Shown here: piece after piece, positions 11,240 to 13,495 of the stretch
How the letters are laid out: each line of letters begins with the position of its first letter
How positions within the stretch are numbered: the stretch's first letter is position 1
Source of the DNA: Planctomycetota bacterium
GTDB lineage: Bacteria; Planctomycetota; UBA8742; UBA2392
Reading direction: 5' to 3'
NCBI GenBank assembly: GCA_020425605.1
Contig: JAGQRH010000016.1
Span: forward strand, 1-64,000
DNA: 64,000 nucleotides
The notes under the pieces: model-generated
What the model was told of the DNA's origin: nothing
The model's input: only the letters and a program-made list of their open reading frames with translations
Database searches by the model: none
Position numbers and translations under genes: made by a program

Positions 11240-11653
11240 ATGAACATGACTGTGGGTGAGCTTTCAAAACAGGCCGGGGTAAACCTGGAAACCGTGCGCT
11301 TCTACGAGAAGCAGAAGCTGATGCCGCGGCCTGAGCGTACATCAGGCGGGCACCGAGTTTACGGCGATGCAGACGTTGAGCGCCTCAAGTTCATCCAGCG
11401 CGCCAAGTGGGTGGGGTTCACGCTGAAGGAAATCCGCACACTGATGCGCGTGCGCGAGGCCGACCCGACCGAAAGCTGTGAAGACGTCATGGACCTCGCG
11501 CGCCGCAAAGTCGTTGAAATCGAAGAAAAGCTGGCCGAGCTCGGTGAGATGCGCAAAGCCCTCCACCGCTTCATCGACTGTTGCCCCAATATCGACGCCG
11601 GGCATTGTCAGGTGCTGCACGGAATTGAACAGGTTTCTGAGCCAAAGGCTTGA
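11240..11653 (+). CDS. MerR-family metal-responsive regulator (mercury-type cysteines)
   Basis: DNA-binding metal sensor, 137 residues. The N-terminal winged helix (MTVGELSKQAGVNLETVRFY) is followed by a long dimerisation helix and a C-terminal metal loop. Cysteines at 80, 114, 115 and 123 reproduce the spacing of the three Hg(II) ligands of mercury MerR (82, 117 and 126): 34-35 residues, then 9. Hg or a related soft metal is therefore the likely signal. GGAG precedes the ATG. It is the first gene of a plus-strand run with a barrel protein and two HMA-domain lipoproteins, and it probably controls them and itself. Confidence 0.85.
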   Translation: MNMTVGELSKQAGVNLETVRFYEKQKLMPRPERTSGGHRVYGDADVERLKFIQRAKWVGFTLKEIRTLMRVREADPTESCEDVMDLARRKVVEIEEKLAELGEMRKALHRFIDCCPNIDAGHCQVLHGIEQVSEPKA

Positions 11654-11716
11654 ACCCGTAGTGAGGTACCAGTGTAGTGTCAGCCTCCCGGTGGTGCGGG
11701 TAACGAGAAAGTCTTG

Positions 11717-12616
11717 ATGCGCTTCATCTTACGCTGACTCATCCTGCTGCTGCCGGCCGTGCTGCCGGCTAGCCTGTTTGCCCACAACACTCTGTTTGGC
11801 CACGCGCCCCGGACCATCTGGAAAGGCGGCATGGAGATTGAGGCCGAGTACGAGTGGCAGATCTTCAAACGCTTCTATGAGGAAGACCACCCGGCCGCGA
11901 ATCCTCGCGACGACCAGGTGACCATTCACGGCTTCACGGCGGCCTGGACGTACGGGCTGCACCGCGACTGGGCGGTCCGCGTTTCCGTGCCGGTGATGTT
12001 CGCAACCCACACCAGCAAGGACGACACGGAGTCGCGTTTCGGGCTGGGCAACATCCCGTTCTCGTTGAAGTGGCGCTTCTACAATGACCCGTTTCCCGGC
12101 GGCTCGATCCAGTCGGGCGCCTGGGTGCGGGTGACTGTCCCGACGGCCGACCGCTCGGAAGACGGCAAGCTGCTGGGCGAAGACATCGAGTTCGGCAACG
12201 AAACCTGGAACTTCCAGCTGGGCTGGACCGCCAGCTACAGCACGCGACAGTTCTACTTCTGGTTCGACGTCGCCGCCGACGCGAGCACCCGGCGCTCCGG
12301 TACGGGCGCGGGGCCGGGCATCGCATTCCACCCGGCGTTTGCGTGGCGCGTGTTTGAATTGACCAGCTACAAGGACTTCGACCTGATCCTGCTGATCGAG
12401 TCGGACTTCGCGATGCAGGCCAAGGGCTCGGTCAACAGCCACCAGAACCCGAATTCAGGCTGGATCAAGACGCACCTTGAGGGCGGGATCCAGATGAACA
12501 TTACCAACCGGATTGAGATCAAGTTCGGGTACCACCTGCCGCTGTACAGGCGTTTCTTTGGGCGGCAGTTCGTCCACGAGGGCGAGTTCAAGTTTTCCTT
12601 CAACTACCTCATCTAG
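11717..12616 (+). CDS. Outer-membrane beta-barrel protein with in-frame TGA in its signal peptide
   Basis: Likely outer-membrane channel of the transporter/MetA-pathway type: alternating amphipathic strands with many aromatic residues (DWAVRVSVPVMFAT, QFYFWFDVAADAS, RIEIKFGYHLPLYRRF) and a C-terminal strand ending in phenylalanine (GEFKFSFNYLI). The only start giving a proper signal peptide is ATG 11717 (MRFILR, then LILLLPAVLPASLFA), but codon 7 (11735-11737) is TGA. A GTG at 11759 restores an open frame but leaves a truncated signal. Possible causes are a nonsense mutation or sequence error, or recoding. A 9-bp hairpin (11749-11773) follows the TGA at SECIS-like spacing. The gene is in the MerR operon. 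Confidence 0.65.
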
Positions 12617-12623
12617 GTGAGCC

Positions 12624-13079
12624 ATGAAAATGAAACTGATGCTTGGGTTGCTGCTCGGTGTGCTGTTGGCCGGCTGCCAGACGGCGCCCGTGGACAACAC
12701 CAGCAAGGTCAACAAAGAGCCGACGCCCAAAGAAAACACCGCGCCGGCGAACAACTCGACGACTGAGCCTGAGCCGACACCCGAGCCGGAAGTCGACCCG
12801 GATGTGGTCAAGGGCCAGGACGGCAAGGAAGTGATCTTCGTCCTCGGCGTAGACGGCATGGACTGAGGACAGTGAGCGACGGGCATCATTGATGCCCTCG
12901 AATCCCGGTCCGGGATTACCGCAGCAAAGACTGACATCATCGAAGCCATCGTGTACCTGAAAGGCAAGGCGGGCACCCAGTTGAAGAAGAGCGAGGTACG
13001 CGCAATAGTGGAAGACGACTACGGCTTCGGATTCCGCTCGCTCGAAACGACCGACAAAAAGTGGGATGACCTGCCGTAG
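12624..13079 (+). CDS. HMA-domain lipoprotein, selenoprotein candidate with U-x-x-U metal site
   Basis: Predicted outer or inner membrane-anchored soft-metal-binding protein, 151 residues if TGA is read as selenocysteine. It has a lipoprotein signal (MKMKLMLGLLLGVLLAGC) and a Thr/Pro/Glu-rich linker (20-62), then a heavy-metal-associated domain: VIFVLGVDGMD, TGA at codon 81, GQ, TGA at codon 84, then ATGIIDALESRSGI. The end, EDDYGFGFRS, is typical of HMA domains. The two TGAs (12864-12866 and 12873-12875) stand exactly where the family has the C-x-x-C metal ligands, and the frame then stays open to TAG at 13079. Ordinary gene calling would stop at residue 80. Two hairpins follow the TGAs. It is in the MerR operon, directly before a C-x-x-C paralogue. 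Confidence 0.8.
12881..12917 (+). promoter_or_regulatory. Candidate SECIS hairpins of the HMA selenoprotein
   Basis: Two adjacent hairpins follow the two TGA codons. The first is GGGCATC-ATT-GATGCCC (12881-12897), with its loop about 22 bases after the first TGA. The second is AATCCCG-GTC-CGGGATT (12901-12917), with its loop about 33 bases after the second TGA. A GGTC loop motif also occurs in the E. coli fdhF SECIS. Bacterial SECIS elements lie inside the coding region just after UGA, so the positions are suitable. No folding was computed. Confidence 0.55.
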
Positions 13080-13114: not shown

Positions 13115-13495
13115 ATGAAGAAGATCATGATGGTTGCCGTCGCGGCGCTGGCGCTGGCCGGTTGCACGCAGTCGGATTCGCAGGAACCGACGCAGGCGCC
13201 CTCCACGGAACAGGCGAAGCCGGCCGAGCAGACCAAGAAGGACGATACGGTGAGCAACGCGCAGCTCGTAACATACGAGGTCAAGGTAGACGGCATGATG
13301 TGTGACGGCTGCAAGAAGCACGTCACCGACATCCTTTCCGCGCAGGAAGGCGTCAACGACGTGACGGTCGACCTCAAGACCGGCACCGCCATCGTGCACG
13401 TGAAGCCGGGCGCAAACTTCGACGAGGCCAAGGCCAAAGACGCTCTCGACGTCGACGACTACAAACTCACCGCCTGCACACGCATCGCCAACTAG
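13115..13495 (+). CDS. HMA-domain lipoprotein with C-x-x-C metal site
   Basis: Membrane-anchored heavy-metal-associated protein, 126 residues. The lipoprotein signal (MKKIMMVAVAALALAGC) and a Gln/Glu/Pro/Lys linker (18-45) lead to an HMA domain with VDGMMCDGCKKHV (Cys63 and Cys66), EGVNDVTVDLKTGTAIVHV and a C-terminal YKLTAC. It likely binds Cu, Hg or another soft metal outside the cytoplasm and may pass it to a partner. GGAG lies seven bases before the ATG. It directly follows the U-x-x-U paralogue and has the same architecture, making a natural cysteine/selenocysteine pair in one MerR-led operon. Confidence 0.88.
   Translation: MKKIMMVAVAALALAGCTQSDSQEPTQAPSTEQAKPAEQTKKDDTVSNAQLVTYEVKVDGMMCDGCKKHVTDILSAQEGVNDVTVDLKTGTAIVHVKPGANFDEAKAKDALDVDDYKLTACTRIAN

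Follow-up and report, generated by a model that had tools for sequence, protein, structure and literature searches.

A lipoprotein gene at positions 12,624–13,079 (forward strand) of the 64,000-nucleotide stretch of Planctomycetota DNA analysed here (the window) raises the question of what a gene encodes when its frame is interrupted by TGA at both ligand positions of a heavy-metal-associated (HMA) domain. An earlier note, made from the letters of the window, proposed that both ligands are selenocysteine (Sec, U). The analysis strongly supports this proposal: all orthologues keep both UGAs, Sec genes are present, and a neighbouring protein swaps Sec and Cys. We consider it probable that the protein is an exported, dual-Sec HMA lipoprotein of a MerR-regulated envelope system for soft-metal capture, with Hg(II) as the likeliest metal.

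Two UGA codons in an HMA lipoprotein

The earlier note described a lipoprotein frame cut by TGA at codons 81 (12,864–12,866) and 84 (12,873–12,875) and then open to a TAG ending at 13,079, and translation of 12,624–13,079 reproduces this exactly: with TGA read as U, the product is 151 residues long, residues 81 and 84 are U, and the stop lies at 13,077–13,079. The product has a lipobox (LAGC, with Cys18 invariant), a Pro/Glu-rich linker and an HMA domain at about residues 74–143, and the sequence around both TGAs reads VLGVDGMD-U-GQ-U-ATGIIDAL. The note had also recognized a G-M-x-C-x-x-C-type site and an HMA fold, and its suggested comparison of the readthrough product with HMA domains gives a match. 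With U read as C, the Pfam HMA model (PF00403) aligns to residues 76–134 at 24.8 bits, exactly the gathering score. The AlphaFold model follows the beta-alpha-beta-beta-alpha-beta order of HMA domains and places the metal site at the start of helix 1, as in HMA-type folds (mean pLDDT 84–96 per ten-residue block over residues 71–151). A fold search of the PDB with this model is led by HMA domains (CCS, CopZ, Menkes, ATP7B and Atx1), with MerP lower down.

A survey for orthologues covered 20 genomes of this class; 15 of them carry the UxxU gene, and the proteins are 31–70% identical to the window protein. All 15 have exactly two in-frame TGAs, at the same two alignment columns, within the motif G-(M/I/V)-D-U-G-(Q/G/E)-U-(A/T)-T-G, and the lipobox Cys is invariant in the same alignment. 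The interruption is therefore not a matter of chance. Cysteine codons (TGC or TGT) in other strains, which the earlier note had named as counter-evidence, occur at codon 81 or 84 in none of the 15 aligned orthologues. Downstream of both UGAs, close relatives differ mostly at third codon positions, and dN/dS is 0.10–0.24 in the three pairwise comparisons among the window, G009 and G008, the latter two being its nearest relatives. Were the gene a pseudogene or the product of sequencing errors, with real or artefactual stops and a dead 3′ part, the presence of the stops would be explained and nothing more; two TGAs in the same columns of 15 independent assemblies, and purifying selection 3′ of them, make this reading barely conceivable, and we rule it out.

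Scanning contigs with an alignment of the barrel protein encoded upstream returned 14 named Planctomycetota metagenome-assembled genome (MAG) loci; the same scan with the UxxU HMA protein returned no loci, probably an effect of back-translating U into Cys codons. Outside the class, a wider search of the phylum gave three weak HMA matches alone, of which two are in long frames (755 and 847 aa); the single match inspected proved to be a P-type ATPase that has the usual CxxC.

Decoding UGA as Sec requires dedicated genes, and the earlier note had suggested searching the genome for selA, selB, selC and selD. Three of the four were recovered: selC (tRNA-Sec, anticodon TCA; found with ARAGORN and Rfam), the adjoining selA (545.7 bits) and selD (398 bits), which has its own in-frame TGA. 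The selD gene (G000:C82:20349-21272, reverse strand) is of the Sec form (GAGUGCK), with a SECIS-like hairpin 3′ of its UGA whose GGU loop lies 27 nt downstream. The fourth, selB, was not found in this assembly, which is 86% complete and in 164 contigs; its GTPase matches resemble IF-2, EF-G and similar proteins, and among them there is no 400-residue EF-Tu (tuf) either. EF-Tu is universal yet absent here, so the selB gap is likely to be an assembly gap. Among the 20 class genomes, selB scores above the cut-off in 16, including all 14 others with the UxxU gene. The note had raised a lack of Sec machinery as grounds for doubt; selA, selC and a Sec-type selD are present here, and selB is seen in the 14 sister genomes.

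An alternative is that UGA has been reassigned in this lineage, to Trp, Gly or Cys. The occurrence of several UGAs within one operon would fit such a change, but UGA acts as a stop elsewhere in the window, where merR and a pirin gene end in TGA; the presence of tRNA-Sec, selA and Sec-type selD also speaks against it, and in a second HMA protein UGA exchanges with Cys at the metal site. We regard reassignment as very improbable and have rejected it. The reading that is strongly supported by these comparisons is that the product of 12,624–13,079 is a predicted exported lipoprotein with one HMA domain and Sec at both ligand positions (G-M-D-U-G-Q-U).

Two tandem RNA hairpins follow the UGAs on the forward strand. 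Hairpin 1 (12,881–12,897; GGGCAUC-AUU-GAUGCCC) has 7 bp and a triloop 21 nt after the first UGA, and is a candidate SECIS for the first Sec. Hairpin 2 (12,901–12,917; AUCCC-GGUCC-GGGAU), with its loop 31 nt after the second UGA, is the candidate for the second; its loop is GGUCC in the window and of an xG type in relatives. Over 15 genomes, 97% of the pair cells of both hairpins are standard. In hairpin 1, 99% of cells are paired, and one pair varies between G-C, A-U and C-G. Three hairpin pairs have changed on both sides, and pairing clearly drops when the register is slid. RNAalifold, unprompted, recovers the same two hairpins, and in 15 of 15 genomes the native stretch folds more stably than its synonymous recodings do on average (z < -2 in 11). 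A search with the Rfam SECIS model gave no match. Since the loops lie at 21 and 31 nt, and that of selD at 27 nt, one SECIS per UGA is the natural reading, and each hairpin would then serve the UGA to which it is assigned above.

Regulator, promoter and neighbouring genes

The lipoprotein gene is part of an operon in the order MerR-type regulator, promoter with a 19-bp spacer, outer-membrane barrel, UxxU lipoprotein and second HMA protein. The order is conserved: the barrel gene precedes the lipoprotein gene in 15/15 genomes, the second HMA gene follows it in 14/15, and the regulator lies upstream in 14/15, once about 6 kb away.

The regulator (11,240–11,653, forward strand; Pfam MerR_1 and MerR-DNA-bind) has three cysteines that align with the Hg(II)-binding cysteines of MerR (79/114/123 in Bacillus MerR) and are kept in 14 of 14 regulators. 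In the PDB it comes closest to two MerR proteins (5crl and 4ua1). Against the ZntR, MerR and CadR models it scores about equally and below every cut-off (120.5 against 150.85 for the MerR equivalog). Between the regulator and barrel genes lies a MerR-type promoter/operator (11,650–11,680, forward strand; TTGAAC-N19-TAGTGT) with a mer-like dyad, CCGTA..GTAC. This pattern has one match in the window, against 0.02 expected by chance. TTGAA(C/T) with a 19-bp spacer and a TA-type -10 element precedes the barrel gene of ten genomes and merR of four more; a sister genome shows the same layout (CCGTAGTAAGCTACGG). The operator dyad in sister genomes is CCGTAG-TAAG-CTACGG, and the known mer dyad is CCGTAC-ATGA-GTACGG. 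We take the 19-bp spacing and the dyad seen here to be those of MerR-regulated promoters. None of the genomes surveyed has a merA above the TIGR02053 cut-off, which rules out a classical reductive mer operon.

Immediately downstream, the second HMA gene (13,115–13,495, forward strand; Pfam HMA, 47 bits) encodes another lipoprotein, with CxxC at its metal site in the window. The earlier note had asked for a related protein with Cys at both positions, and this neighbour is one. Counting the window, nine genomes have CxxC at this site; at loci L046, L047, L048, L049 and L053 it contains Sec instead, as UxxC in four cases and as UxxU in one. This is direct evidence that Sec and Cys interchange at the HMA site in this lineage. 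This switching is a natural experiment on what Sec gains at such a site. Hairpin stability after the UGAs of the second HMA genes was not significant relative to synonymous recoding.

Other HMA proteins with several UGAs were also noted. Six sister genomes encode lipoproteins in which an HMA-UxxU domain (GITUxGUPN) is fused to a thioredoxin-like UxxC domain (HGPGUxPC), with three in-frame TGAs per gene (L113 (4818-5570, forward strand), L114, L115, L116, L117, L118 and L121). Further HMA proteins have two TGAs spaced U-x3-U (GMTUGTGU) rather than U-x2-U (L119, L120, L122, L123 and L124).

The barrel gene (11,717–12,616, forward strand) contains a UGA of its own. The open reading frame encodes a predicted outer-membrane beta-barrel (AlphaFold pLDDT 85; Foldseek match to 4rl8, E 1e-9), and the in-frame TGA is codon 7 (11,735–11,737), inside the signal peptide: the N terminus reads MRFILR-UGA-LILLLPAVLPASLFA-HNTLFG, with the mature part starting at HNTLFG (11,783). 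Of the 15 genomes (loci L044-L057 and the window), 12 have a signal-peptide TGA; in nine of them it is codon 7, and in three it occupies another position of the signal peptide. Among the other three barrel genes, one encodes Gly at the aligned position, and the signal peptides of two are uninterrupted. Starting at the next start codon, as would happen if the UGA were not read through, would yield a protein with no workable signal peptide. Within the genus this UGA is followed by a hairpin, with z of about -1.9 against synonymous recoding in two genomes and no significance otherwise. Decoding of this codon as Sec is likely. The signal peptide is cut off, and selenium would be of no use to the mature barrel; the UGA might instead act as a selenium gate, tying barrel export, and by coupling the whole operon, to Sec supply, such that the metal-capture machinery is built just when selenium is at hand. 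We offer this gate as a speculation. If the codon is read as Sec, it would represent a new way to couple expression to selenium status. In the open-licence literature, outside which most subscription papers lie, we found no description of a bacterial signal peptide that contains a Sec codon, or of this operon.

Proposed mechanism and choice of metal

We propose that tRNA-Sec and SelB decode the two UGAs, which lie nine bases apart, and that the tandem downstream hairpins probably help. The cytoplasmic regulator would sense a soft metal and open the 19-bp-spacer promoter, whereupon the barrel and the two HMA proteins would be made. The UxxU protein may then capture the metal outside the cytoplasm by its selenolate pair and pass it to, or share it with, the second HMA protein.

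Hg(II) is our tentative first choice of metal, because the regulator matches MerR proteins, the operator is mer-like and selenolates have a known affinity for mercury. The profile matches of the UxxU lipoprotein count against it: its HMA domain is closest to copper chaperones, with copper ATPase domains and CopZ in the lead and the HMA domain of MerA weak, and CopZ models also lead the family-model matches of the UxxU lipoproteins. Cd, Zn, Pb or Cu are possible ligands; Zn, Cd or Pb would suit a regulator that lies about equally near the ZntR, CadR and MerR models and passes none of their cut-offs. The same dual-Sec protein might accordingly be a copper, zinc or cadmium chaperone and not a mercury-capture protein, in keeping with its copper-type profile matches and with a regulator as near to ZntR as to MerR. 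The best solved matches of that regulator are MerR proteins, however, and the sister operator dyad resembles that of mer, and we think such a chaperone unlikely, if still a serious contender.

A different possibility is that UxxU is not a metal site at all, and that the pair cycles between diselenide and diselenol or carries selenium in the periplasm. Redox functions predominate among known selenoproteins, and the same genomes fuse HMA-UxxU to a thioredoxin-like domain. The HMA fold with its GMxCxxC-type site, and the MerR metal regulator with its conserved cysteines, argue for metal binding instead, and we judge a redox or carrier role improbable. On the favoured reading, capture of a soft metal, a pair of Sec residues would hold the metal in a protein that is both exported and anchored, and that is kept near a metal-sensing regulator across a Planctomycetota family and beyond, and selenolate-based soft-metal capture becomes directly testable.

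Relation to known metal-binding proteins

Among known proteins, the HMA domain comes close to the metallochaperones MerP, CopZ and Atx1, which share the fold and the position of the GMxCxxC site; like MerP, the window protein is predicted to be exported. It differs in having Sec for both Cys, a lipid anchor and no adjoining merT or merA. The MerP model matches the UxxU lipoproteins weakly, in 6 of 15 members. The upstream barrel resembles in fold the COG4313/MetA-type outer-membrane channels (PDB 4rl8), from which it differs by an invariant His at the mature N terminus and the likely Sec codon in its signal peptide; a sequence search of the PDB with the barrel gave no match.

Sec has been linked to heavy-metal transport before. 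Sec-containing MerP reads were listed in the GOS survey (PMC2398784); they too are selenoproteins connected with heavy-metal transport, in a different architecture. The same holds for NF045683 (NCBIfam), a MerT/CopZ fusion-like heavy metal transport selenoprotein, whose model does not match the window protein. Closest in kind is NF041115 (NCBIfam), a UxxU metal-binding (seleno)protein with an HMA domain and, according to a 2026 review, two Sec (PMC13188914), listed as a putative mercuric reductase, UxxU (PMC13188914, PMC9312934). The feature in common with the window protein is an HMA domain whose two ligands are both Sec. Against the NF041115 cut-off of 95 bits the window protein reaches 19, over 30 positions only, which rules out membership, and unlike NF041115 it is a lipoprotein with a linker, a different HMA sequence and a MerR–barrel operon. 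A dual-Sec HMA domain is thus not the first of its kind; judged by sequence, the window protein represents a new family of the same kind as NF041115, adding an exported family to the small known group of selenium-based metal-binding proteins.
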